64,000 nucleotides of DNA. It comes from Desulfovibrionales bacterium (GTDB lineage Bacteria > Desulfobacterota > QYQD01). Positions 2,771-51,273 of this stretch are shown here, piece after piece. The position numbers were made by a program, and so were the translations under genes. The stretch's first letter is position 1; each line of letters starts with the position of its first letter. The notes beneath the pieces are model-generated. The model made no database searches. It was not told where the DNA came from and was given only the letters and a program-made list of their open reading frames with translations. The stretch is taken from positions 62,001 to 126,000 of the forward strand of contig JAQURM010000002.1 in the NCBI GenBank assembly GCA_028715605.1, in the 5' to 3' direction.

Positions 2771-5700
2771 TTACTCCGGGTTAATTCCTGTGCCGTCCAA
2801 ACTTTGACTTTTTACGAGTTCATCAGTATTTAATCCGGCATTGCTTTGCAGACCATGATACTCCTGAACAGGGCTTACCCGCAACTTTTTTTGCAGCATG
2901 GCCTCAATGGCCGCGGCTATGGCCCTGGCCCCGGCTATGGTAGTAGTATAGGATATGCGGTAATCAAGCGTGGCCCGGCGGATTTTATAGGAATCCCGGG
3001 TAGTGCTGGCTCCCAGAGAGGTGTTGATTACCAACTGAATAGCGCCGTTTTTAATGTGATCCACCACATGGGGACGGCCCTCCGACACCTTATGGACAGT
3101 TTCGCAGGCAATCCCGTTGGAAGCCAGAAACGCGGCTGTGCCCCGGGTGGCCAGGGTTTTGAATCCAATATCGGCCAGTTTTCGGGCGACAGGGAGGACG
3201 GCCATTTTATCTTTGTCACGCACACTGATAAAAACCGTGCCGGATAGGGGGAGATTCTGGCCGGCGGCCAACTGTGATTTGGCAAAGGCCATGCCGAAAC
3301 TCTCGTCAATGCCCATAACCTCCCCGGTGGACCTCATCTCCGGCCCGAGGAGGGTATCTACCCCTGGAAAGCGGTCAAACGGGAATACGGCCTCTTTCAC
3401 CGCTATATGCCTTATTTCTTTTTCGGTGGTAAGCCCCAGCTCGCGGAGCGTTTTCCCGAGCATGACCTTTGTGGCCACCTTGGCCAGTGGAATGCCTGTG
3501 GCCTTGCTCACAAAAGGCACAGTGCGCGAGGCCCGCGGATTGACCTCCAGCACATAAATATCCTTATCCTTTATGGCGTACTGGACGTTCATGAGGCCGA
3601 TGACGTTTAGTTCTCTGGCCATGGCCTTTGTGTCCTTTTTTATTCTATCGATTAAATCAGGGCTCAGGGTGTGAGGGGGAAGGACGCAGGCGCTGTCGCC
3701 GGAATGGATACCGGCCTCTTCAATATGCTCCATTATCCCGCCGATGATGGTCTCCTGACCATCGGAGACGGCATCTACATCGATCTCGATAGCGTCTTCC
3801 AGAAACTTGTCGATAAGCACCGGATGTTCGGAAGAGGCCCTAACCGCGGATTCGATGAAATCCTCCAGTTCCCGGTCATCATAAATAATGCGCATGGCCC
3901 GTCCGCCCAGGACGTAAGAAGGACGCATGACCACCGGGTAGCCGATGGACCGGGCCACGGCCAGGGCATCTTCCCTGGCGGTAGCCGTGCCGTTGGGCGG
4001 CTGCTTCAGGCCCAGCTTTTGCAGCACGGCCTGGAAACGCCTCCGGTCTTCCGCACGGTCGATACTGTCGGGGGATGTCCCCATTATCCTTACCCCGGTT
4101 TGGGACAGAGGTACGGCCAGATTGAGGGGTGTCTGTCCGCCGAATTGTACAATGACGCCCATTGGTTTTTCTTTAGCGATGATATTCAGGATGTCTTCTT
4201 TGGTCAGAGGCTCGAAATAGAGCTTATCTGACGTATCATAATCAGTGCTCACGGTCTCCGGGTTGCTGTTGACCATGATGCTCTCATAGCCTTCTTCGCG
4301 CAGGGCAAAAGAGGCGTGGACACAGCAGTAATCAAATTCTATCCCCTGGCCGATGCGGTTAGGCCCTCCGCCCAGGATCATCACCCTGGGGCGTTCGGAG
4401 AGACGGGATTCGTCCTCGACTTCGTAAGTGGAGTAATAATAAGGGGTATAGGCCTCAAACTCCGCCGCACAGGTGTCCACCAGTTTATAAACCGGTTTTA
4501 TGCCTGCCTTCTCGCGCCGGCTGCGGATTTCATCCTCAGTCCGGCCGGTAAGGTAGCCCAGTTGATAATCGGAGAACCCTGTTTTCTTGGCCTGATGCAG
4601 AAGGTCTTCGGTAAGTTTTTTATCTGCGGACCGGATATTACGTTCCATATCCAGTATCTGCCGCATATTTTCCAGGAACCAGGGGTCTATCCCGGTCAAT
4701 TCGTGGATTTTTTTGGTATCCAGACCGGCCAGCATGGCATAGCGTATATAGAAGATGCGCTGAGAATTGGGGATGCGGAGCTTTTCTTCTATTTCGGCCA
4801 TAGGGGGAAGGCTCCGGCTGCGTTCGTAACCATCCTTCCCATCGGCTCCCCATCCGTAACGTCCGATCTCCAGGGAACGGAGCCCTTTTTGCAGGGCTTC
4901 CTTGAAGGTGCGTCCGATGGCCATAGTTTCACCCACAGACTTCATGGCCGTGGTAAGGTAGTCCTCAGCGCCCGGAAATTTCTCAAAGGTCCAGCGCGGG
5001 ATTTTTACTACACAATAGTCGATGGTGGGTTCAAAGGAGGCCATGGTCTCCCTGGTAATATCATTCGGGATTTCATCCAGGGTATAGCCGACGGCCAGTT
5101 TGGCGGCAATCTTGGCGATGGGGAAGCCCGTAGCCTTGGAGGCCAAAGCGGAACTGCGTGAGACGCGCGGATTCATCTCAATGACCACCATCTCTCCGTT
5201 TTCCGGATTTACGGCGAACTGGATATTGGAACCGCCGGTCTCCACACCTATCTCGCGGATGATAGCGATGGCCGCATCGCGCATTATTTGATATTCCCGG
5301 TCGGTCAGGGTCTGGGCCGGGGCCACGGTTATGCTGTCTCCGGTGTGGACGCCCATGGGGTCGAAGTTCTCGATCGAACAGATAATGACCACATTATCTT
5401 TAACGTCGCGCATGACCTCAAGCTCGTATTCCTTCCAGCCGATGACCGATTCTTCCAGCATAACCTCATTTATCATGCTGAGATCAAGGCCCGAGGTCGC
5501 CATTTTTTCCAGGTCTTCCCGGTTATAGGCCACACCGCCCCCGGTGCCGCCTAGGGTAAAACTGGGCCGGACGATGAGCGGGTAGCCGATCTCAGCGGCA
5601 ATGCGGCGTACGTCGTCCATATTACGGGCGATGCCGCTTTTGGGTATCCGGAGGCCGATATTGCGCATGGCCTCCCGGAAGAGATCCCGGTCTTCGGCCT

Positions 5701-6073
5701 TTCTGATTACTGTGGCAGAGGCCGCGATCATTTCTACGCCGAAGCGGTCCAGGACACCCATATCCGCTACTTTGATGGCCACGTTCAGACCCGTCTGCCC
5801 GCCCAGGGTGGGCAGTAAGGCATCCGGTCTTTCCTTTTCAATGACCATGGCCACCATCTCCGGGGTAATAGGCTCTATATAGGTGCGGTTGGCCGTCTCC
5901 GGGTCGGTCATGATGGTAGCCGGGTTGCTGTTTATCAGAATAACCTCGTAGCCTTCTTCCCTGAGGGCCTTGCAGGCCTGGGTCCCCGAGTAGTCAAACT
6001 CACAGGCCTGGCTGATAATGATAGGGCCGGAGCCTATGATCAGTATCTTTTTTATGTCATTTCTTCTGGGCAA
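2771..6073 (-). CDS. carB: Carbamoyl-phosphate synthase large subunit
   Basis: Makes carbamoyl phosphate from bicarbonate, ammonia delivered by CarA and two ATP, for pyrimidine and arginine synthesis. Two homologous ATP-grasp halves are evident: the first begins [20 protein letters not shown], the second (about residue 560) [20 protein letters not shown]. Both contain the EMNPR or EVNPR motif near their ends. A methylglyoxal-synthase-like allosteric domain occupies about 940-1065. Total length is 1100, slightly above the usual 1070, because of a low-complexity C-terminal tail ending [10 protein letters not shown]. It is separated by 5 bases from carA and 3 from purF. Confidence 0.96.
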
Positions 6074-6078
6074 GGTAT

Positions 6079-7188
6079 TTAGCCTCTTTCTTTCATCAGG
6101 GCCACAAACTGATCGAAGAGATATGCGGCATCATGAGGGCCGGGGGCGTTTTCCGGGTGATATTGTACCGAGAAGACAGGATAATGCCGGTGTCGCATTC
6201 CCTCCAGGGTCTGGTCGTTCAGATTGACGTGGGTGACCTCTACCTCTTTTTCATCTAAAGAGCTTACGTCCACACAGAAGCCGTGATTCTGCGCCGTGAT
6301 CTCTACTCGTCCGGTAAGCAGGTTCTTTACCGGCTGGTTCCCTCCCCGGTGGCCGAACTTGAGTTTATAGGTTTTGCCGCCAAAGGCCAGACCCAATAGC
6401 TGGTGGCCCAGACATATGCCAAAGATAGGCTTTTTGCCTATAAGATCGCGTATGGTCCCGACTACACCGGGTATGCCCGCCGGGTCACCCGGGCCATTGG
6501 AGAGAAAGATTCCGTCCGGTTCCAGGGCCAGCATATCACGGGCGCTCGCTGTGGCCGGGAGGACTATTACCTCACAGCCGCTGTTTTTCAGGCAGCGCAG
6601 GATGTTGAATTTTATGCCGTAATCCAGGGCTACCACCCGAAGGGCGTTTCCTTTTGGCGCGGACGCTCCTTCTACCGGGCAGTCTTCCCAGAGATAGGGG
6701 GCGGAGCAGGTAACTTCCCTGACCATATCCCGGCCCACCAGGCCGGGTGAATCTTTGGCTTTTTTTATCAGGGATGCCGGATCAAGGTCTTCCGTGGAAA
6801 TTACCCCTTTCATGGCCCCGGCCAGCCGTATGTGCCTGGTGAGGGCGCGTGTATCCACGTCTTCGACGCCTAGCACATTATATCTTTCCAGAAAGTCTTT
6901 TAAGGTCTGAGCGGACCGCCAGTTACTGGGGACGCCCTGGTATTCTTTGACAATAAAGGCCTCGGTCTGAACTTGGCGCGACTCCATATCTTCGCTGTTT
7001 ATGCCATAGTTGCCGATCAATGGGTAAGTCATGGTGACTATCTGACCTTTATAGGAGGGGTCGGTCAGGATCTCCTGATAGCCGGTCATGCTGGTATTAA
7101 AGACTATCTCGCCACAGACCTCCCCGCGGCCGGCAAAGGCCCGTCCGCTAAAAATCCTGCCGTCTTCGAGTGCGATCAATGCCTTCAT
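6079..7188 (-). CDS. carA: Carbamoyl-phosphate synthase small (glutaminase) subunit
   Basis: Hydrolyses glutamine and channels ammonia to CarB. The 369 residues comprise an N-terminal CPSase small-chain domain (start [18 protein letters not shown]) and a C-terminal class I glutamine amidotransferase. The nucleophile elbow GICLGHQ and the His-Glu pair in VQYHPE complete the Cys-His-Glu triad. The ATG overlaps the waaA stop in an ATGA arrangement (4-base overlap), suggesting translational coupling. Immediately followed by carB. Confidence 0.96.
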
Positions 7189-8504
7189 GCTGCTTCCTTA
7201 CGGCCAGCGCCTTCCAGTACTTCTTTGATGAGAAGGGCCTGTCTCTTTGCCGTTCCCTGATTGGCCTCCACGGCCTTTTTCCCTTGCATCCCGCGCGCCT
7301 GCAACTCGGCCGGATTTTCTAAAAACCAGACGGCTTTTCCGGCAAGATCGCGGGCATCCTGGACTTCCACGCCGGCCATAACCGATTCGAGAAGGATTTT
7401 AGCATCCAGAAAATCCTGCATGGACGGCCCGTAGAAGACCACTTTCCCCCAGATGGCGGCCTCCAGTATATTATGCCCTCCATACGGTATAAGACTGCCG
7501 CCGCAGAAGATAATCGTGCCTATGCTATAGAGATGGAACAAATCCCCTATCGAATCCACCAAGATGACGGATTGTCTTGTCTCAGAGGCAAGGTTACTCC
7601 ATTTGGTATATCCCCATCCATTCTTCTTGAGCAGGGATTCGACTCCGGAGACCCTTTCTATATGCCGTGGGGCGAGGATCAGCAGCATACCCGGATATTT
7701 CCTTTGCAGGAATTGATAAGCCTGCAGGATGATCTCCTCTTCACCCGTATGGGTGCTTCCGGCTATAAAGACTATATCATCAGGCGTAATCCCCAGCCGT
7801 TTCCGCATAGCATCTTTAACTTCCGGTCCGGCCTGCCGGGATAGAAGGTCATATTTGGCATTGCCCTGGACCACGACCTTATGTCTCTCTGCCCCCAAGG
7901 CCAGGATACGTTTGGCATCGTCTTCCCGGATCATGCTTAAGTAATCAAATCTTTCCAGGATAGGCCGCATAAACGACCTGATTTTTTGATAACGGGCCAA
8001 GGAACGCGTCGATATACGTCCGTTAACCAGTATAATTTTGCTGCCCTGGCGGTGTGCCCGGTAAATAAAACCCGGCCAAAGCTCTGTTTCCAGGCAGATT
8101 ACGGCCTCCGGGGAGACTAACCGCAAGGCCCGGCCTACTACCCAGCCGATGTCTATCGGGAAAAAGGTACAGAGGGCCTGATCCCCTAATTTTTCCCTGG
8201 CTATTTGTTGTCCCTGCTCAGTAACTGTGGAGAGGACAAATAATAAATCAGGAGGCAATATCTCCCTCAGAGAGGCTATTAAGGCAGCCGCTATCCTTAC
8301 TTCACCCACGGAGACGGCGTGAATCCACAATCGACGGGGGCTCGCCTGTAGCTTTTTCTTTAAGGAAGCGGGGTAGAATCCCAGGCGTTGCCAAAGGCCC
8401 CGGCGGTGTTTGCCGGTAACCAGACTATAAACTAAAAAGAGGGGAAAGAAAGGAATGAAAAGTGCGCTGACTAAGACGTCATAAATTTTATATGCCCAGG
8501 GCAT
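7185..8504 (-). CDS. waaA: 3-deoxy-D-manno-octulosonic acid (KDO) transferase
   Basis: Transfers KDO from CMP-KDO to lipid A precursor at the inner face of the cytoplasmic membrane (glycosyltransferase family 30). The 439-residue length is typical. An N-terminal hydrophobic anchor (about 8-28) precedes the family block [12 protein letters not shown]. Other family features are [10 protein letters not shown], the acceptor-domain FETELWP-like [24 protein letters not shown] and the GGHNILE sugar-nucleotide site. It heads the tight waaA-carA-carB-purF-kdsD run. The M48 peptidase lies 56 bases upstream on the same strand. Confidence 0.94.
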
Positions 8505-8560
8505 CTTTCCCCATAATTACATGCCTGAAATTTGTGAGGTAATATAATCAATCTCAGGCG

Positions 8561-9364
8561 TTAGTCAAGTCTTTTGCCGTAGTAGCGCAGGGCTTCAGGG
8601 AGGTGTTCCTTGATGTTTCGAATACGGGTCTCATCAGCAGGATGGGTGGACAGGAAGGCCGGGATCCTGTCTTTTTCCACCCGAGACAGGCGTTGCCAGA
8701 AGGCTATGGCCTCTCCGGGATCATACCCGGCCCGGGCCATCAGGATGAGGCCGATGCGGTCGGCCTCCAGCTCATGCGTGCGGCTGAAGGGCAGGATAAA
8801 CCCAATCTGCGCCCCTACCCCGTAGGCCATGTTGGCGGCCTGTACGGCTACAGCGCTTTTCTCGCTTATGGCGATATTCATGGCCTCCTGTCCTATCTGG
8901 GCGATCAGGGTGGTGGTCATACGTTCGGCCCCGTGGCGGGCAATGGCGTGGGCCACCTCATGGCTTATCACGGTGGCCAGTCCGTTTTCGTCTTTAGTAT
9001 AGGGCAGTATGCCCGTATAGATGGCGACTTTACCGCCGGGGAGACAGAAGGCATTCGCCGTCTTATCGTCCTCGATGACATTAAATTCCCATTCAAATTC
9101 AGGACGGTCTGCGGCCCCGGCAATACGTAGTCCGACACTCCTTACCCGGCTGACTAATTTTTCATCCCGGGATAAGTTAGACTCACTTATTATCTCTCGA
9201 TAGGATTTAAGGCCGAGGGCCGTATCTTCTCCTTCGCCGATCAATATGAGCTGTGAACGTCCGGTAAACGGAGCGGTCGCGCACGCACAAAGCAGCATAC
9301 AGAGACAAACATAGCATACGTTTCTCACTTGCCTGGACAGCCATAACTTTTGCACTGGTTTCAT
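8561..9364 (-). CDS. M48-family metallopeptidase, predicted lipoprotein
   Basis: Zinc-dependent endopeptidase of the LoiP/YcaL or BepA type, likely acting at the outer membrane on misfolded envelope proteins. A hydrophobic signal (about 16-28) ends in a lipobox-like LCAC, so Cys28 may be lipidated. HEVAH (HExxH) supplies two zinc ligands and the catalytic Glu, and ELEADR about 60 residues later supplies the third ligand. The C-terminal LSTHPADETRI is typical of the family. Length 267 indicates a peptidase domain without TPR repeats. The start is supported by GAAGGAGGGTG upstream of ATG 9364. It may be co-transcribed with waaA. Confidence 0.88.
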   Translation of the reverse strand: MKPVQKLWLSRQVRNVCYVCLCMLLCACATAPFTGRSQLILIGEGEDTALGLKSYREIISESNLSRDEKLVSRVRSVGLRIAGAADRPEFEWEFNVIEDDKTANAFCLPGGKVAIYTGILPYTKDENGLATVISHEVAHAIARHGAERMTTTLIAQIGQEAMNIAISEKSAVAVQAANMAYGVGAQIGFILPFSRTHELEADRIGLILMARAGYDPGEAIAFWQRLSRVEKDRIPAFLSTHPADETRIRNIKEHLPEALRYYGKRLD

Positions 9365-40759: not shown

Positions 40760-41053
40760 ATGAAAACCAAGGAAGAAATTCTCAAAATGTTAGCGGCATT
40801 GAACCCCGAACTTCAATCCCGGTACAAGATCAAAGAAATTGGGGTGTTTGGCTCCTTGGTTCGGGGCGAACAGACGGCGGCAAGTGATGTTGACCTCTTG
40901 GTGGATTTCAGCGAAGATGCCGATCTTTTTGACCTGGTGGGGCTATCGCTTTTCCTCGAAGAAAAACTTCGCTGCAAAGTCGATGTGGTTACCAAAAGAG
41001 CTCTCAGACCGGAGATTCGCGATGCGGTGCTAAGGGAGGTCGCCGCCATATGA
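40760..41053 (+). CDS. mntA: MNT-domain nucleotidyltransferase antitoxin
   Basis: A 97-residue minimal nucleotidyltransferase. The fold signature GSLVRGEQTAASDVDLLVDF contains Gly31-Ser32 and the metal-binding Asp43 and Asp45. A third acidic residue is Asp75 in CKVDVVT. In characterised HepT/MntA pairs the MNT protein neutralises the HEPN ribonuclease by adding AMP to its tyrosine. The gene overlaps hepT by four bases (ATGA). RBS GGGAGGATAATTCAAA. Confidence 0.9.
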   Translation: MKTKEEILKMLAALNPELQSRYKIKEIGVFGSLVRGEQTAASDVDLLVDFSEDADLFDLVGLSLFLEEKLRCKVDVVTKRALRPEIRDAVLREVAAI

Positions 41054-41388
41054 GAGACTATAAGCTCTACCTGAAAGATATCCTGGAAGCAATGACCAGT
41101 ATTGAAACGTTCGTAGAAGGGATGGATTTTGAGTCATTCCGTGCGGATGACAAAACATCAAGTGCCGTGATACGGAAGTTTGAGATTATTGGTGAAGCAG
41201 CGAAGAAAGTTCCTGACGAAATACGGCAGGATTATCCTTCGGTGCCCTGGAAGGAGATGGCAGGTATGCGAGACAAGCTTATTCATTTTTACGCTGGGGT
41301 TGATTATCCTCTGGTCTGGAAAACTATAACAAGGCGCTTGCCCGAAGTAAAGTTGCATATTCAGAAGATTGTAGAGGAAAGGCAATAA
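41050..41388 (+). CDS. hepT: HEPN-domain ribonuclease toxin (DUF86)
   Basis: A 112-residue all-helical HEPN protein. The catalytic Rx4HxY motif is intact: Arg74, His79 and Tyr81 in MRDKLIHFY. IIGEAAKKVP is the usual family block. Characterised relatives cleave RNA or tRNA and are silenced by AMPylation of the motif tyrosine. Coupled to mntA. The pair lies in a repeat-flanked insert abutting a truncated vsr. Confidence 0.9.
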   Translation: MRDYKLYLKDILEAMTSIETFVEGMDFESFRADDKTSSAVIRKFEIIGEAAKKVPDEIRQDYPSVPWKEMAGMRDKLIHFYAGVDYPLVWKTITRRLPEVKLHIQKIVEERQ

Positions 41389-42419: not shown

Positions 42420-45224
42420 ATGGACTACCGGGAGACGCTTAATCTGCCGCAGACTGATTTTGCCATGAAGGCCAATCTTACCGAACGTGAGCCGGCCGTG
42501 ATTGAGAAATGGGAGGCGACCAGACTTTACGAACGCATACGCATGGCGTCGGGCGGGAGACCCCGGTATATACTCCATGACGGACCGCCTTATGCCAACG
42601 GCCACATCCACATGGGTACGGCCTTTAATAAGATACTGAAAGACATAGTCTTAAAGTCCAGGCAGATGGCCGGGGCTGATTGTCCCTACGTGCCGGGCTG
42701 GGACTGCCACGGACTGCCCATCGAACACCAGGTGGACAGGGAGCTGGGGGCCAGGAAGAAAGGCTTATCCAAACTTGAACTCCGGCGGCATTGCCGGAAG
42801 TACGCCGAAAAATTCATTGATATCCAGCGGGCCGAGTTCAGGCGTTTAGGCGTCCTGGGGGACTGGGATAATCCTTATCTGACCATGAGTTATGAATACG
42901 AGGCAACGATTGCCCGCGAGTTTGGCCGGCTTTTTCTGAACGGCAGCATATATAAGAGCAAAAAGCCGGTTTATTGGTGCACTTCGTGCAGGACGGCACT
43001 GGCCGAGGCCGAGGTTGAGTATTATCCGCACCGTTCGCCGTCCATCTATGTCAAATTCCCGCTGGCTTCGGATTTGACCTCCCGCCTGCCGTCCCTGGCC
43101 GGCAGGAATGTATTCATGCTGATATGGACTACTACTCCCTGGACCCTTCCGGCCAACCTGGCCGTGGCCCTGAACCCCGGATTTGATTATGTGGCCGTAC
43201 AGGTAGAAGATGAGGTATGGATCGTGGCCGAAGGGCTGCTTCTTTCACTGCTGGGAGCCCTGGGTATTGAGGGATATAAGATATTGGAGCGTTTCCCGGC
43301 ACGGCGCCTGGAGGGGCTGAAGTGCCGGCATCCTTTTTATGAGCGCGATTCTGCCGTCATTATGGCCTCCTATGTAACCATGGACACCGGCACCGGGTGT
43401 GTACATACCGCGCCGGGCCATGGCCGTGAGGATTATGAGAGTGGTTCGGCCTACGGGCTGGACATCTATTCGCCGGTGGACGCCGGGGGTAAGTTCACGG
43501 ATGAGGTCGGCTACTTTGCCGGAGAGGATATATTCAAGGCCAATAGGGCCATTATTAATCTTCTCAAGGAGAAGGGGCGTTTGATAGGGAGTGAAGAGAT
43601 CGAGCATAGCTATCCACATTGCTGGCGTTGCAAAAGGCCGGTCATTTTCCGGGCTACCGAACAGTGGTTTGTCTCCATGGAGAAAAACGGCCTCCGGGAA
43701 AAGACGCTGGATTGGGTGGACAAGGTCAAATGGGTGCCTAAGTGGGGCCGGGACCGGATCCACAACATGCTGGCCAGCCGGTCGGATTGGTGTATATCGC
43801 GGCAACGTTCCTGGGGTGTGCCCCTGACCATTTTTTATTGTCGCGGCTGTGGCGAGGCGCTCATGAATGCGGAGATCATGGGAAAAGTGGTTAATAAATT
43901 CCGCGAAGGCGGGGCGGATACGTGGTTTGAGCTTGAATCCGGGGAATTTATCCCGGAAGGAACCACATGCCCCAAATGTAAGGGCACGGAATTTGAGAAA
44001 GAAACGGACATCCTGGATGTCTGGTTTGATTCCGGGGTCAGTTTTGCCGCTGTCTTGGAAGGCCGGAAAGAACTGGGCTTCCCGGCTGACCTGTACCTGG
44101 AGGGGAGCGATCAGCACCGCGGCTGGTTCCACAGCTCGCTGTTGGCGGCGGTGGGTACCCGGGGACAGGCCCCTTATCGCTCGGTGCTTACCCATGGCTT
44201 TGTAGTCGATGGCGAAGGAAAGAAGATGTCCAAATCCCTGGGCAATGTTATTGCCCCGGAGGAGATCATAAAAAAACATGGGGCGGAGATCCTGCGCCTC
44301 TGGGTATCAGCCGAAGATTATCGCGATGATATCAAGATTTCTCCGGAGATCCTGCAGCGGTTGACCGAGGCCTACCGGAAGATCAGAAACACGGCGCGCT
44401 ACATACTGGGCAACCTGTATGACTTTTCACCGGAGAAAGATGTCATTTCTTACAGTGAGATGGTGGAGATAGACCGTTTTGCGCTGCATCAACTTGTGCA
44501 AATAACAGATAAGATACGCTCGGCCTACGAGGAATTTGAACTTCATACCGTTTATCACACCCTCTACCAGTTTTGCGCCGTGGATTTGAGCGCCTTTTAC
44601 CTGGATGTCCTTAAAGACAGACTTTACACCAGCGGCAAGGAATCAAAAGACCGGCGCTCGGCCCAGACCGCCATGTTTTACATCCTGGATACCCTGGTGC
44701 GTCTGATGGCTCCTATTCTTTCATTTACCGCTGATGAGATATGGCAGTATATGCCTGAGACGGCGGGCCGGGAAGAGGGCATTCACCTGGCCGGTTTCGC
44801 ATCCCTCCCGCCGGAGTTTAAGGATGCGGCGCTCGCCGCGAAATGGGAAAAGCTGCTTGCCGTCCGGGCCGGGGCGACCAAGGCCCTGGAACTGGCCCGC
44901 AGGGACAAGGTGATCGGACATACCCTCAGCGCGGCGCTCAAGGTTTATCCTGCCTCTGAAGATTATTCGTTTTTGAGCGAAAATGCAGAGCAATTACGCG
45001 CCATACTGATCGTATCGCAATTCGGGGTTGCCGAAGGGCCAGCGCCGGCCGGCGCCTACGTGGCTGAAGAGATAAGCGGGCTTTCTATTGTGGTATCTCC
45101 GGCTAAAGGGACCAAATGTGAACGCTGCTGGACGGTATCTGAGAGTGTGGGCGCTTTTACCGATCATTCGACTATCTGTGCCCGATGCCGGGAGGTGGTT
45201 ACGGCAAGCGGGAGTAAAGGATAA
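42420..45224 (+). CDS. ileS: Isoleucyl-tRNA synthetase
   Basis: Charges tRNA-Ile in the cytoplasm; class Ia synthetase of 934 residues. The HIGH-equivalent is HIHMG (about 62-66), the editing domain is intact, and KMSKS is present in [12 protein letters not shown]-terminal zinc site has two CxxC pairs (CERCW and CARC), the eubacterial IleRS1 type. Start 42420 ([14 protein letters not shown]) is chosen because upstream residues in the open frame are hydrophobic and not conserved, and GGGGGATAC precedes it. A TTGACA at 42352 may belong to its promoter. It heads ileS-lspA-lgt. Confidence 0.96.
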
Positions 45225-45234
45225 TAAAAGTAGT

Positions 45235-45768
45235 ATGGATACTCTATCAGAAACAGAAAAAAAATCTTTAAAGCCGGCGGACGACCTCTCTCAGAAGAGA
45301 CTGTGGTATTTATTCCTGGGCATGGCTTTTGGTGTTTTCGCCCTGGATCAACTGACCAAGGGACATATACAATACCATTTTGGCCTGTATGAGAGCCGGG
45401 CCGTCGTCCCGGGTTTTTTTAACCTGACATATATAACGAATTCCGGCGTGGCTTTTGGGCTGATGAGCGGAGAGCCGGATACCTGGAAGCGGTTATTTTT
45501 TCTTTCGGTAACACTGTTAGCCGTAGGGTTTATCTTTTATCTCTTCGGACACTTCAGGTCAAAGGGCCGGGGAGCGGTCATCGCTATGGGGATGATACTG
45601 GGCGGCGCCATCGGAAATATGGCAGACCGGGTGCGCATGGGCAAGGTGATCGACTTTCTCGATTTTTATATCGGCGGCTGCCATTGGCCGGCTTTTAATG
45701 TGGCTGATGCCGCCATAAGCTGCGGCGTGCTGTATCTGGCGCTTACGCTTTATAGACAACAGGGGTAA
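45235..45768 (+). CDS. lspA: Lipoprotein signal peptidase (signal peptidase II)
   Basis: Cleaves diacylated prolipoproteins at the inner membrane. The 177-residue protein has four predicted helices and the aspartyl catalytic pair in GNMADRVRMGKVIDFLD and FNVADAAI. An N-terminal cytosolic extension of about 25 charged residues precedes the first helix, slightly longer than usual. Start ATG 45235 is 10 bases after ileS; the frame is open farther upstream but overlaps ileS. The ileS-lspA order is common in bacteria. Confidence 0.95.
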   Translation: MDTLSETEKKSLKPADDLSQKRLWYLFLGMAFGVFALDQLTKGHIQYHFGLYESRAVVPGFFNLTYITNSGVAFGLMSGEPDTWKRLFFLSVTLLAVGFIFYLFGHFRSKGRGAVIAMGMILGGAIGNMADRVRMGKVIDFLDFYIGGCHWPAFNVADAAISCGVLYLALTLYRQQG

Positions 45769-45771
45769 TCT

Positions 45772-46551
45772 ATGCATCCGATACTCTTTCGCATAGGCGG
45801 GCTTACTATCCACACCTATGGTCTGTTTGTGGCCATGGGGTTTATGGCAGGCATGGCCCTTGCCGTCCGGGAGGCCAGGCGCGCGGCTCTGGATACCGAG
45901 AAGATTTCCAACCTTTTTTTCTGGATCATAATTTCGGCGATCATCGGTTCGAGGCTTCTTTATGTCATAGCAGAGGCCCCGGGGCTTATAATGTCTCCCT
46001 TCGAGATCTTTAAGATATGGAAAGGCGGCCTGGTCTTTTACGGCGGGGTTATCCTGGCGATGGCAGTTACGATTTTTTATATAAGGCATAACAAGCTGCC
46101 GCTCTGGACAACCATGGATATCCTGGCCCCGCCCCTGGCCCTTGGCCTGGCCTTTGGCCGCCTCGGATGTTTTTCTGCCGGTTGCTGCTATGGCCGGCCT
46201 GCCGATGTCCCGTGGGCGGTTACGTTTACCAATCCGGATTCGCTGGCGCCGCTTTATATTCCCCTCCATCCTACCCAGCTTTATGAGGCCGGCACGGCGC
46301 TTATTATTTTTGCCATTCTTATGCTTACACGCCGGGCGAAGCGGTTTGAAGGCCAGATGATGTGGACATTCTTTTTTCTATACGCTGTGGCGCGCTTTAT
46401 CATCGAAAATTACCGTGGCGACCCCCGTGGGGCGGTATGGGGCGATCTCCTCTCTACCAGTCAATTTATAAGCTTACTTTCGGCTGTTGCTGCGCTGGCG
46501 GGTTTCTTTTATTTTCTGAGGAAGCAAGGCGCAAGGCAAGGGGGCACGTAA
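45772..46551 (+). CDS. lgt: Prolipoprotein diacylglyceryl transferase
   Basis: Adds diacylglycerol to the lipobox cysteine, the first lipoprotein maturation step. The 259-residue polytopic membrane protein contains HTYGLFVAMGFMAG, GGLVFYGGV, FGRLGCFSAGCCYGRP and LHPTQLYE. The first and last carry conserved residues of the family. It starts 3 bases after lspA, so consecutive enzymes of the pathway are encoded together. An alternative is a YfdC- or LgtA-like variant, unlikely. Confidence 0.94.
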   Translation: MHPILFRIGGLTIHTYGLFVAMGFMAGMALAVREARRAALDTEKISNLFFWIIISAIIGSRLLYVIAEAPGLIMSPFEIFKIWKGGLVFYGGVILAMAVTIFYIRHNKLPLWTTMDILAPPLALGLAFGRLGCFSAGCCYGRPADVPWAVTFTNPDSLAPLYIPLHPTQLYEAGTALIIFAILMLTRRAKRFEGQMMWTFFFLYAVARFIIENYRGDPRGAVWGDLLSTSQFISLLSAVAALAGFFYFLRKQGARQGGT

Positions 46552-46659
46552 TAAAAAATCTTGCAAAAGGGGCAAACTTCATTATTATTAGGCCCGAATT
46601 TTTGGGGCGTAGGATTTAGGCCCGCTGTTATTGATCTTTATGGCTGCTTGGAGGTGCGT

Positions 46660-47103
46660 ATGCTTATTCTGGAAGATCTTAAATATACTGAAGAACATAT
46701 ATGGGCCAGACACGATGGGGGTAAAAAGATTACCATAGGCATTACTGATTATGCGCAGAAGAAATTTGGTGATGTTGTTTATATTGAATTGCCGGAGGAA
46801 GGGGAAGCGGTCATTAGCGATGATCCGTTCGGCAGTATAGAATCTTCTGAATCTGTTTCCGATCTGTACGCTCCTTTGAGCGGAGAGGTAATCGAAATTA
46901 ATGAAGAGCGCATCGATTCCCCGGAGATAGTCAATGATGACCCTTATGAAGAAGGCTGGCTTATACGTATAAAGGTTCCTTCCCTTAAGGAATATAATGA
47001 GCTTATGAGTGCGGACGAGTACAGGGAATACGTGCAGCAGGAGGAGATGGAGGAGGAAGAAGAAGAGGAAGAAGAAGAGGAAGAGGAAGCAGAAGCAGAT
47101 TAG
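46660..47103 (+). CDS. GcvH-like lipoyl-domain protein lacking the lipoylation lysine
   Basis: A 147-residue protein with the glycine-cleavage H fold (KYTEEHIWAR, GITDYAQKKFGDVVYIELPE, SDLYAPLSGEVIEIN, GWLIRIKV). The normal ESVKAVSD lipoylation site reads ESSESVSD, so the acceptor lysine is Glu64 (codon GAA) and lipoylation is not possible by the standard route. Residues 128-147 are almost only Glu. Start 46660 follows GGAGGTGCGT. No gcvT or gcvP neighbours. It could be a non-catalytic structural or regulatory paralogue. GcvH fold is sure, function is not. Confidence 0.85.
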   Translation: MLILEDLKYTEEHIWARHDGGKKITIGITDYAQKKFGDVVYIELPEEGEAVISDDPFGSIESSESVSDLYAPLSGEVIEINEERIDSPEIVNDDPYEEGWLIRIKVPSLKEYNELMSADEYREYVQQEEMEEEEEEEEEEEEEAEAD

Positions 47104-47263: not shown

Positions 47264-48214
47264 GTGAAAAAAGTAGCTTTTTTATTCCCCGGCCAGGGGT
47301 CTCAGTACGTGGGCATGGGGAAGGATCTTTATCTGAAAAGGTCAGAGGTAAAGAAGATTTTCGACACAGCCTCTGCCATTACCGGCCTTGATCTGGCCTC
47401 TCTCTGTTTTGACGGCCCCTTAGAAAGATTGACGGAAACGGTCAACGTCCAGCCGGCCATTACCGCCGTTAATCTGTCCTGCCTAGCCGTGTTACAGGAA
47501 AATGGACTGGCCCCGGATATGGTGGCCGGACATAGCCTTGGAGAATATTCGGCGCTCTATGCCGCAGGGGTTATAGGTCTGGCGGATGCCTTTCGCCTGG
47601 TAGCGGAGAGGGGCAGACTAATGCAGCAGGAGGCGGAAAAGAATCCCGGGGGCATGATAGCGGCTATTGGCTTGGATATAGATGTCATAAAAGGATTGGT
47701 TGAAGATGTCCGGGGAACAGGCGTGGGCGTGGTTTCTATTGCCAACCACAATACACATGAGCAGATCGTACTTACGGGACAGAAAGAGGCGTTAAATAGA
47801 TTGTCGGCTAAGGTGAGCGCCGCCGGCGGGAAGGCCATCCCCTTAAAGGTCAGCGGGCCCTGGCATAGTTCCCTTTTAAGGGATGCAGTCAACTATTATA
47901 AGGAATTTATGGAAGGGATCACGTTCCATAATCCCTCTGTCCCTGTATTGTTCAATGTCACCGCCGAGTTCGCGGAAGAGCCGGGAGAGATCCGTAAGAT
48001 CATGTCCCGGCAGATATGTTCACCCGTACTCTGGTATGATATAATGCAAAAGATGCTGGCCGGGGGTGTCTCTATTTTTGTTGAGGCCGGCCCTAAAAAG
48101 GTTTTATCCGGTTTATTGAAAAAGACCTTGCCGACTGATGATCGCTTCGAAATCTATCAGGCCGACGATCTGGAAGGCCTTTTGGCCGTTGCTGAAAGGT
48201 TGGCCGGAAATTGA
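47264..48214 (+). CDS. fabD: Malonyl-CoA:acyl carrier protein transacylase
   Basis: Loads malonate onto ACP for fatty acid synthesis. The 316 residues begin MKKVAFLFPGQGSQYVGMGK with a GTG start. Catalytic Ser91 lies in GHSLGEYSALYAAG and His201 in GPWHSS. The start at 47264 is chosen because the frame upstream is translated from the dispersed repeat; AAAGGGA lies 11 bases before it. The stop TGA (48212-48214) is the first triplet of the next repeat copy, so the repeat defines the C-terminus. No other fab genes are adjacent. Confidence 0.95.
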   Translation: MKKVAFLFPGQGSQYVGMGKDLYLKRSEVKKIFDTASAITGLDLASLCFDGPLERLTETVNVQPAITAVNLSCLAVLQENGLAPDMVAGHSLGEYSALYAAGVIGLADAFRLVAERGRLMQQEAEKNPGGMIAAIGLDIDVIKGLVEDVRGTGVGVVSIANHNTHEQIVLTGQKEALNRLSAKVSAAGGKAIPLKVSGPWHSSLLRDAVNYYKEFMEGITFHNPSVPVLFNVTAEFAEEPGEIRKIMSRQICSPVLWYDIMQKMLAGGVSIFVEAGPKKVLSGLLKKTLPTDDRFEIYQADDLEGLLAVAERLAGN

Positions 48215-48322: not shown

Positions 48323-48526
48323 ATGCCAAAACTAGTCCTGTATAAAGACCGGTGTAAAGGATGCGCCCTTTGCACCCTGGCCTGCCCCAAACACCTCCTT
48401 GAGATCAGCACGGAGATCAATAGACAGGGATATTATGTAATTTCTCTGGCCTCGTCCGGGAAATGCGATGGCTGCGGCCTGTGTGCGGAGATGTGTCCGG
48501 ATATGGCGATAGAGGTCTGGCGTTAA
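48323..48526 (+). CDS. korD: 2-oxoacid:ferredoxin oxidoreductase, ferredoxin-like delta subunit
   Basis: A 67-residue polyferredoxin with two CxxCxxCxxxCP motifs (CKGCALCTLACP and CDGCGLCAEMCP), binding two [4Fe-4S] clusters. It passes electrons from the thiamine-diphosphate site of the complex to free ferredoxin. Two bases separate it from korA. First gene of the korDABC cluster. Confidence 0.93.
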   Translation: MPKLVLYKDRCKGCALCTLACPKHLLEISTEINRQGYYVISLASSGKCDGCGLCAEMCPDMAIEVWR

Positions 48527-48528
48527 AA

Positions 48529-49593
48529 ATGCGGAAGACAGAAGCGGTTTCTAACCGGAAGCTGGTTAAAGGGAACGAGGCCATTGCCTTGGGCGCTATT
48601 GCGGCCGGATGTCGTTTTTATGCCGGCTATCCGATTACTCCGCAGAACGAAATCCCGGAATTCATGGCCGGCCGGATGCCTGCCGTGGGCGGGACATTCA
48701 TTCAGGCGGAAAGTGAGATAGCGGCTGTCAGTATGGTGATGGGGGCTGCCGCCACAGGGGCGAGGGCCATGACCTCTTCTTCCAGCCCGGGCATATCTCT
48801 GAAGCAAGAGGCCATCTCCTATATGGCCGGGTCAGAGATCCCGTGTGTAGTGGTCAATGTATGCCGTAGCGGTCCGGGGTTGGGCGGGATAAGCGCCTCC
48901 CAGGGCGACTATTTTCAGGCCACCCGGGGCGGCGGTCACGGTGACTATCGCACCTTTGTCCTGGCGCCCCATTCTGTGCAGGAGAGTTATGACCTGACTA
49001 TGCTGGCCTTTGATATTGCAGACCGGTACCGGACACCGGTTCTGGTTTTGAGCGATGCAGTCCTGGGACAGATGAAAGAGCCTGTTTACCTCCGGGGTTA
49101 TAAGGGGCGGGAGATAAGAAAACCCTGGGCGCTTACCGGCGCAAAGGGACGCAAGGCCCGGTATCTGAAAAGTCTGTATTTGAACGAAGGTGAACTCACG
49201 GCGCGCAACTGGAAACTTTTCAGGAAATACAGACGCATGGAGAAGGAAATTCGTTACGAAATGTACCTTACAGAGGATGCCGAGGCCATAGTCGTGGCCT
49301 TTGGGTGCACAGCCAGAATTCTCAAGACCTCCATACAGATGGCCCGCATGAAAGGGATGCGGGTCGGGATGTTTCGTCCCATAAGCCTTTTCCCGTTTCC
49401 TTCGCAGGCGCTCGCCGCTATCTCGAACCGGGTGAACCGGTTCCTGGTTTGTGAATTGAATACCGGCCAGATGGTCGAAGACGTGCGCTTAGCGGTTAAG
49501 CCGGGCGCCACTGTGGAGTCCTGTCTATGTCCGGGTTATATCCCGACCCCGAATGAGCTTTTTAAACAAATTAAAAGAAGGGTATCACTTTAG
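48529..49593 (+). CDS. korA: 2-oxoacid:ferredoxin oxidoreductase, alpha subunit
   Basis: A 354-residue alpha subunit: pyrimidine-binding and transketolase-C-like domains. GCRFYAGYPITPQNEIPEFM and the Glu-containing FIQAESEIAAVSMVMGAA, then ARAMTSSSSPGISLKQEAIS, are characteristic of the 2-oxoglutarate/2-oxoisovalerate group. ATG 48529 follows the korD stop directly. The complex oxidatively decarboxylates a 2-oxoacid to its acyl-CoA with ferredoxin reduction, or runs in reverse for CO2 fixation. Specificity between 2-oxoglutarate and branched-chain acids cannot be fixed from sequence by eye. Confidence 0.93.
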   Translation: MRKTEAVSNRKLVKGNEAIALGAIAAGCRFYAGYPITPQNEIPEFMAGRMPAVGGTFIQAESEIAAVSMVMGAAATGARAMTSSSSPGISLKQEAISYMAGSEIPCVVVNVCRSGPGLGGISASQGDYFQATRGGGHGDYRTFVLAPHSVQESYDLTMLAFDIADRYRTPVLVLSDAVLGQMKEPVYLRGYKGREIRKPWALTGAKGRKARYLKSLYLNEGELTARNWKLFRKYRRMEKEIRYEMYLTEDAEAIVVAFGCTARILKTSIQMARMKGMRVGMFRPISLFPFPSQALAAISNRVNRFLVCELNTGQMVEDVRLAVKPGATVESCLCPGYIPTPNELFKQIKRRVSL

Positions 49594-49700: not shown

Positions 49701-49782
49701 CCGAGACGCTGTTTTCTGGACGACTAGCTCTTTTCAAACAGCTAAGGTGTTACAAAAAAAGTTTTATCCAATAGTCCTTAAG

Positions 49783-50520
49783 ATGAAGCCGGTATTTAAG
49801 AGACCAAAAAGCCTTTATGACGTCCCTTTTCATTATTGCCCCGGGTGCCATCACGGCATAGCCCATCGTCTGATCGCCGAGGCTATAGATGCTTTGGGCA
49901 TTCAGGAACGGGTTGTTGCCGTGGCTTCTATCGGCTGTTCGGTCTTTCTTTATGATTATTTTGCCGTTGATGTGCTGGAGGCCCCCCATGGCCGGGCCCC
50001 GGCAGTGGGTACCGGTATAAAGAGGGCGCGGCCCGAAAGCATAGTCTTTACCTACCAGGGCGATGGGGACCTGGCCGCCATTGGCCTGGCAGAGACTATC
50101 CATGCCGCTAACCGGGGAGAACAGTTGGCGGTATTTTTTATCAATAACACTATCTATGGGATGACCGGGGGACAGATGGCCCCTACCACCTTGCCCGGCC
50201 AGAAGACTACGACGACGCCTTCAGGCCGCCGGGTTATTGGCGAAGGGGCCCCCCTTAAGATGGCCGAGATGATTGCGGCGCTGAAGCCTCCGGCCTTTGT
50301 GGCCAGAGTGGCCGTTAACAATCCCAGAAATATTCTCCAGGCCAAGAAGGCGGTTCAAAAGGCCTTCCGCATACAAGTGGAAGGGAAGGGCTATGCCTTT
50401 GTCGAATTCCTCTCTGCCTGTCCGACCAACTGGAAGATGACCCCGTGCGAGGCCAATCGCTATGTAAGTGAGACGCTGATTCCGGAATTTCCGCTGGGGG
50501 TGTTTAAAGGCGACTTATAA
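49783..50520 (+). CDS. korB: 2-oxoacid:ferredoxin oxidoreductase, beta subunit
   Basis: A 245-residue thiamine-diphosphate-binding subunit. FHYCPGCHHGIAHRLIAEAI at the N-terminus, GCSVFLYDYF, the TPP/Mg motif GDGDLAAIG...NNTIYGMTGGQ and SACPTNWKM near the end are family blocks. ATG 49783 fits the usual start (MKPVFKRPKSLYDVPFHYC); an in-frame GTG at 49747 is an alternative, since neither has a strong ribosome-binding site. It is separated from korA by a repeat. Confidence 0.93.
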   Translation: MKPVFKRPKSLYDVPFHYCPGCHHGIAHRLIAEAIDALGIQERVVAVASIGCSVFLYDYFAVDVLEAPHGRAPAVGTGIKRARPESIVFTYQGDGDLAAIGLAETIHAANRGEQLAVFFINNTIYGMTGGQMAPTTLPGQKTTTTPSGRRVIGEGAPLKMAEMIAALKPPAFVARVAVNNPRNILQAKKAVQKAFRIQVEGKGYAFVEFLSACPTNWKMTPCEANRYVSETLIPEFPLGVFKGDL

Positions 50521-50715: not shown

Positions 50716-51273
50716 ATGTATTTTGACGTGATCATATCCGGATTCGGCGGGCAGGGCATACTGTTTATGGGCAATCTTCTGGCCCATGCCGCTATGCTCG
50801 AAGGGAAAAATGTGACCTATATGCCTGCTTATGGGCCGGAAATGCGGGGAGGGGCGGCTAATTGCACCGTGGTTGTGGCGGATGAGGAAATCGGTTCTCC
50901 GGTCATTTATCACCCGCATACCGCTATCGTCATGAACAGGCCGTCTCTATATAAATTCGGCCCGCGCCTCCTGCGCAGCGGTTTGCTGGTGGTCAACGCT
51001 TCTCTTGTTGATCCTGCGGAGGTTGTCTATAAGGGTATCAACCTGTTGTTTGTCCCGGCTAATGACCTGGCCCGGGAGACCGGGGATGATCGCCTGGGAA
51101 ACATGGCGGCCTTGGGGGCATTGATAACAAAGACCGGGGTTGTGCGTTTACAGAGCCTTGTTGATGCGTTATCAGAGATTATACAGGAAAGATATCGTGA
51201 CCTGCTGCCGGTAAACGTCAGGTGTCTGGAAAAGGGCGCCATCTACGTAAGAAATCTCAAATCTCAAATTTGA
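50716..51273 (+). CDS. korC: 2-oxoacid:ferredoxin oxidoreductase, gamma subunit
   Basis: A 185-residue gamma subunit starting MYFDVIISGFGGQGILFMGN, the family hallmark. MPAYGPEMRGGAANCTVVVA and the GRAPALG-like C-terminal half follow. It completes korDABC. The 195-base gap to korB is occupied by a repeat, but the order and orientation support one complex. Confidence 0.93.
   Translation: MYFDVIISGFGGQGILFMGNLLAHAAMLEGKNVTYMPAYGPEMRGGAANCTVVVADEEIGSPVIYHPHTAIVMNRPSLYKFGPRLLRSGLLVVNASLVDPAEVVYKGINLLFVPANDLARETGDDRLGNMAALGALITKTGVVRLQSLVDALSEIIQERYRDLLPVNVRCLEKGAIYVRNLKSQI

Follow-up and report, generated by a model that had tools for sequence, protein, structure and literature searches.

What becomes of a glycine-cleavage H-protein once the lysine that should bear its lipoyl group is gone, and for what purpose might a cell keep it? 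This question is raised by a gene at positions 46660–47103 (forward strand) of the window, that is, of the whole 64,000-nucleotide stretch of contig JAQURM010000002.1 from a Desulfovibrionales bacterium analysed here. A preliminary description of the sequence had noted a well-kept H-protein fold with glutamate at the lipoyl-lysine position and a poly-glutamate tail, and had suggested recruitment to a non-catalytic role. We propose the label GcvHx for this gene and its relatives.

An H-protein fold that cannot carry lipoate at site 64

The GcvHx reading frame is intact, starts with ATG behind a ribosome-binding-like GGAGG (46650–46654, forward strand) and encodes 147 amino acids. The protein scored 150.8 bits with the Pfam profile GCV_H (PF01597; cut-off 22.2), and it exceeded the equivalog cut-off of TIGR00527, the NCBIfam model GcvH. 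NCBIfam names GcvHx proteins GcvH, and no separate model claims them: GcvH_rel_desulf (NF045810) and not_gcvH (TIGR03077) likewise describe H-protein-like families outside the glycine cleavage system (GCS), but GcvHx scored far below their cut-offs (48.9 versus 150 and 58.1 versus 144, respectively). AlphaFold reached a pLDDT of 45.7 on the single sequence; we used instead an alignment-based model, built from the window protein and loci found by tblastn, with a pLDDT of 94.3. This model superposed on known H-proteins with TM scores of 0.95–0.96 and an rmsd of 0.8–1.0 Å (1.0 Å for Thermus thermophilus, 0.8 Å for pea), and in it the hairpin strands 56–62 and 66–70 are predicted to be intact, with Glu64 at the turn. 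The closest matches in both structure and sequence are H-proteins. Canonical GcvH and GcvHx share the whole fold, about 40–50% identity, and the His13-Trp15 and DPY..GW motifs, so the fold is indeed as well kept as first described.

GcvHx differs from canonical GcvH at three places. First, the hairpin motif reads E61-S-S-E64-S-V-S-D. Codon 64 (46849–46851) is GAA, and alignment to the pea structures 1dxm and 1htp puts Glu64 on the column of lipoyl-Lys63, as the preliminary description had it. Since residues 36–104 of the translation contain no lysine, a nearby hairpin lysine cannot substitute, and we rejected this kind of rescue. Site 64 of GcvHx cannot carry lipoate. Second, codon 14 (46699–46701) is ATA, encoding a hydrophobic isoleucine in a column that is Glu in 69 of 69 canonical sequences; in the pea structures, Glu14 is part of the cleft wall around the lipoamide-methylamine arm. 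Third, residues 128–147 (47041–47100) form a long acidic tail encoded by an imperfect GAA/GAG array. The last 20 residues comprise 16 Glu, 2 Ala, 1 Met and 1 Asp, close to the nearly all-Glu composition originally reported. Codon 64 is GAA in all five species of the genus (the window's genome and G001–G004), and all have an acidic tail, which measures a similar 15–20 residues in the four sister species.

Glycine cleavage and lipoate machinery in carrier genomes

The window's genome is 97.5% complete, and a profile search of it gave a single GCV_H match, so a hidden second gcvH was rejected. GcvHx had been called a paralogue, with the advice to look for a separate canonical gcvH; none exists in this genome, and the term is wrong here. 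That no glycine-cleavage genes adjoin held true well beyond the locus: across the five genomes of the genus, neither GcvP (GDC-P) nor GCV_T had a match. A lipoyl E2 acyltransferase was not found in the window's genome, and neither LipA nor LplA/LipB, the lipoate enzymes that the search covered, exceeded the cut-offs in G000, G001, G003 and G004; the ligase fold was absent. With LipA, LplA/LipB, GcvP, GcvT and a lipoyl E2 all missing, the window's organism could neither make nor attach lipoate with the known enzymes. Compared with a functional GCS H-protein, the window protein retains the fold and the profile match but lacks the lipoyl lysine, Glu14, the P- and T-proteins and the lipoate enzymes.

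Within the genus, only G002 has a separate lipA-lplA module and two further Lys-bearing GcvH-like genes, one of them adjoining a lipA-lplA-dihydrolipoamide dehydrogenase-like set. Such Lys-bearing genes (loci L070, L071 and L073 on contigs C200 and C41) occur in this one sister species. One contig carries lipA and lplA together with genes resembling those for lipoamide dehydrogenase and OsmC, and the other, judged by eye, an arsenite-methyltransferase-like gene. These genes may form a mobile lipoate module related to thiols or arsenic.

Across the phylum, GcvP was present in 3 of 53 genomes with a lysine-less H-protein versus 22 of 25 with a Lys-bearing one, LipA in 11 of 53 versus 23 of 25, and LplA/LipB in 13 of 53 versus 24 of 25, counts that are phylogenetically non-independent. 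All three were without a match in 40 of the 53 lysine-less genomes, the window's own included. This scarcity also holds per family (f1, f5, f7, f28, f48, f61, f65, f79 and f93), and assembly gaps in incomplete MAGs could explain some of the missing lipoate enzymes. Because most carriers are without GCS or lipoate machinery, GcvHx should have a role other than glycine cleavage. GcvHx is found in families f10 and f51 even though these retain lipoate genes, and in genome G050 it occurs alongside the canonical operon gcvT-gcvH(K)-gcvP in full. GcvHx is therefore no substitute for GcvH, and lysine loss is more than a by-product of losing lipoate.

A lysine-less clade in Thermodesulfobacteriota

To place GcvHx, we surveyed 395 genomes of the phylum Thermodesulfobacteriota and read 147 unique H-protein sequences. 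The lysine state was scored by alignment columns, as a regular-expression motif read-out had missed several members. In this way, 55 of the 147 sequences, from 14 families, were found to have no lysine at the column. Their motifs vary widely: ESSESV (f1), ESQNEV and EAQRSV (f10), ESTDEIV (f5), ESAQGV (f65), ESTRKV (f93), ETIEEV (f28), EAKNGR (f7), EAQNGR (f51) and ENSMGEV (f79). Residue 14 distinguishes them as well, independently of site 64: Glu14 is missing from 54 of the 55, nearly all of which have a hydrophobic residue instead, and is present in 69 of the 92 Lys-bearing sequences. With Lys64 lost, a hydrophobic residue 14, an acidic tail and a locus outside the GCS, the window protein shows every feature by which we define the GcvHx family.

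About 53 of the 55 lysine-less proteins form one clade that includes a few Lys-bearing members. In an IQ-TREE analysis from which residues 14 and 61–66 had been removed, a split supported at 98/79 set 35 rows, comprising 27 of the 29 lysine-less sequences and 8 Lys-bearing ones, apart from 56 rows, 54 of them Lys-bearing. Two losses outside the main clade (f59 and f34) look independent. The lysine-less H-proteins that branch among canonical sequences, apparently through independent loss, are L165 (G378, ESVTAETEL) and L186 (G037, ESERSVFEV); in the latter, Glu14 is retained and the tail is acidic. Inside the clade, lysine stands at or next to the column in f6 (ESNKTV), f79 (ENMKAEV) and DTYH01 (ESTKSEV), and at residue 63 in f7. 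These members either are ancestral or have regained the lysine by chance where the site is free to vary.

The preliminary description had asked whether lysine loss and the acidic tail co-occur. They do, with a median net acidic tail charge of 11.5 in lysine-less versus 2 in canonical proteins, but largely within one clade. An initial expectation of many independent co-occurrences was dropped, since the tree made with the trait columns removed gives mostly one clade, and an independent-pairs test, limited to 6 pairs and low in power, did not reach significance. Thus, the acidic tail is a property of the clade, and its association with lysine loss has mainly one evolutionary origin.

Site 64 has the highest entropy of the 98 core sites in the lysine-less clade, with 12 residue types among 27 sequences, whereas in canonical sequences its lysine is invariant (n=43); the residues flanking it stay fixed in the clade. 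Site 64 is thus free of constraint in proteins whose fold and remaining sequence are conserved. In the open-access literature searched, a lysine-less GcvH family is not described. GcvHx is best read as a previously unrecognised, clade-wide family derived from the H-protein: a known fold that has lost its defining feature and taken on a new job.

Other unusual H-proteins emerged from the survey. L149, L150, L171 and L193 keep the lysine but not Glu14 (EARKTV, ESAKAI, ESSKTI) and lie in pepQ-accB-accC-gcvH arrangements, some with lplA; this class is a possible intermediate and another possible non-GCS H-protein. Judging by such Lys-bearing, Glu14-less sequences near accB-accC or lplA, the loss of Glu14 may have preceded that of Lys64. 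At L207 (G034:C1:86000-98000; 4236-5585, 5599-6423 and 7839-8717), response-regulator receiver domains appear in tandem, fused to GcvH-like domains without the lysine motif; one protein has a further HdrC-like ferredoxin domain, and Hdr-like genes adjoin. These fusions would put an H fold without the lysine to a second use, distinct from that in GcvHx. Longer GcvH-like proteins of about 200–260 amino acids are encoded at L206 (G010:C10, 5005-7112), L208 (14046-14822) and L213 (4430-5818), in tandem at L206 and L213; this set has rearranged lipoyl hairpins, for example ALLKQGQKASFLAPVDG.

Gene neighbourhood, candidate partners and selection

In the window, the gene order ileS-lspA-lgt-gcvHx-fabD-korABC joins two neighbour sets; the coordinates that follow are all on the forward strand. 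Upstream lie lspA (45088–45768, PF01252) and lgt (45772–46551, PF01790), whose linkage is kept in f1, f5, f10 and f82. The next downstream gene is fabD for malonyl-CoA:ACP transacylase (47264–48214, PF00698), followed by genes for the alpha (korA-type, 48463–49593, PF01855 and PF17147), TPP (korB-type, 49747–50520, PF02775) and gamma (korC-type, 50716–51273, PF01558) subunits of a 2-oxoacid:ferredoxin oxidoreductase. These window genes were Pfam-checked; all other neighbour labels were assigned by eye and clustering. Further upstream (40760–41388, forward strand), adjacent 97-residue nucleotidyltransferase-like and 112-residue HEPN-like frames resemble, by eye, an MNT/HEPN toxin-antitoxin pair.

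The best functional clue is a probable translational coupling of gcvHx and fabD. Besides f1, gcvHx stands directly upstream of fabD in four families (f28, f65, f79 and f93). At all 23 listed loci of these five families, the two genes are adjacent on the same strand, with gaps of -4 to +50 bp (101 bp within the window's genus), and at 13 of the 23 loci the reading frames overlap by 1–4 bp. A MoaA-like gene precedes gcvHx in f65, f79 and f93, and resB-ccsA follows it in f7 and f51. Neither gcvT nor gcvP ever adjoined it in the loci read. As fabD linkage is missing from f5, f7, f10, f51 and f82, where the flanks are lgt, resB-ccsA or SIR2, the partner of GcvHx may be a general or a different one.

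We favour, at a probability of about 0.6, an adaptor or regulator that descends from the H-protein, acts independently of lipoate and is most likely coupled to FabD. An H-protein ancestor would have lost lipoylation at Lys64 and the cleft residue Glu14, and its C-terminus would have acquired a strongly acidic tail. The resulting protein may bind a partner enzyme non-covalently through the retained H-protein surface, with the tail as a putative electrostatic docking element, and may scaffold or regulate this enzyme in acyl metabolism. We infer that such a role would be non-catalytic. The closest parallel in kind is offered by the biotin attachment domain-containing (BADC) proteins of plant heteromeric acetyl-CoA carboxylase, BCCP relatives that lack the modified lysine and act on the enzyme without biotin. 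The role of GcvHx probably concerns the initiation of fatty-acid synthesis; as a partner, FabD is the first, if tentative, candidate, and KorABC would come second. A bolder reading, which is rather doubtful, makes GcvHx a phylum-scale adaptor that gates the use of malonyl units for fatty-acid synthesis via FabD, perhaps also coupling it to the 2-oxoacid:ferredoxin oxidoreductase, as an H-protein counterpart of plant BADC that has outlived its parent pathway.

The proximity of fabD, a consumer of malonyl-CoA, also fits a regulator of acetyl-CoA carboxylase (ACCase) that binds biotin carboxylase or BCCP as a lysine-less carrier lookalike and so tunes malonyl-CoA supply. BADCs offer a precedent, being BCCP relatives without the biotinylation motif that are kept as non-catalytic partners and act as ACCase inhibitors or assembly glue (PMC11926652). 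In addition, Lys-bearing, Glu14-less H-proteins adjoin accB-accC, and one such group branches with the lysine-less clade. However, BADCs derive from BCCP and act beside it, whereas GcvHx is an H-protein and not a BCCP in sequence and fold, its genomes often retain no active carrier paralogue, and no accBC lies near the lysine-less genes. We consider this reading unlikely.

GcvHx could instead be an accessory protein of KorABC, for example a factor for assembly or redox-partner docking. The POR/KOR domains of the window are confirmed, and three families (f1, f28 and f51) have korA/korC within a few genes of gcvHx, arranged in two ways. They are not near it in the other sampled families, though, fabD intervenes in f1 and f28, and such oxidoreductases require no lipoyl-type carrier, which makes this explanation improbable too.

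The H fold also has a signalling rather than a glycine-related role in the GcvH-L proteins of SirTM/macrodomain operons, where SirTM acts on lipoylated GcvH-L beside LplA2 and a macrodomain. SirTM reportedly modifies a GcvH-like protein, and in three f10 genomes the gene immediately downstream of gcvHx belongs to the SIR2 family; one f7 genome has such a gene nearby. GcvHx as a substrate of another modification, such as sirtuin-linked ADP-ribosylation of the tail or of a Ser or Asp, is nonetheless quite improbable: SIR2 does not adjoin in most families, the window included, the loop residues are not conserved, and GcvH-L (PDB 5a35) is only 24% identical to GcvHx and belongs to a lipoyl-dependent system whose operon, with LplA2, macrodomain and lipoylated GcvH-L, is absent here.

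A neutral relic would be an H-protein gene decaying after the loss of the GCS and lipoate synthesis, with Lys64 the first residue to go. The absence of these enzymes from the window's genome and most carriers would suit it, as would a 2026 study of carbon-fixation evolution in Desulfobacterota, which described repeated GCS losses, suggested low constraint on GCSH and left its origin open (PMC12827605). Conservation largely refutes this idea, and we regard it as very improbable. Among the five genus species, dN/dS of the GcvHx core was 0.15–0.30 in 9 of 10 pairs (the exception, at 0.49, was the closest and least informative pair), similar to fabD (0.18–0.25 in most usable pairs, leaving out comparisons with G003, whose implausible values probably reflect a length difference in the ungapped comparison). 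Families about 50–57% identical to the window protein share 25 invariant columns, reading frames are still intact in lipoate-lacking families, and GcvHx persists where lipoate enzymes remain (f10, f51). Purifying selection and retention in more than ten families argue for a real function and, together with the absent machinery, support the recruitment first proposed.

Finally, although GAA and AAA differ by one base, a sequencing or assembly error at codon 64 is refuted, since five independently assembled species of the genus share GAA and lysine is lost in thirteen further families.

The lipoate-independent adaptor that we favour would not be the first H-protein relative recruited out of glycine cleavage. 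LbpA, the lipoate-binding protein of the sHdr sulfur-oxidation pathway, is a GcvH homologue with a strictly conserved lysine in all 95 aligned sequences (PMC6067878); the window protein, in contrast, has no such lysine and lies between lspA-lgt and fabD-kor, not in an shdr cluster. In GcvHx, a swinging-arm carrier protein has been retained under selection after its cofactor, enzymes and attachment residue were gone, and fabD and kor can now be named as its candidate partners. A separate lysine-less family is also a testable explanation for the GCSH origin left open earlier (PMC12827605). In many sampled Thermodesulfobacteriota, the proteins that annotation pipelines call GcvH, and from which glycine cleavage or the reductive glycine pathway is inferred, are unable to serve that function.
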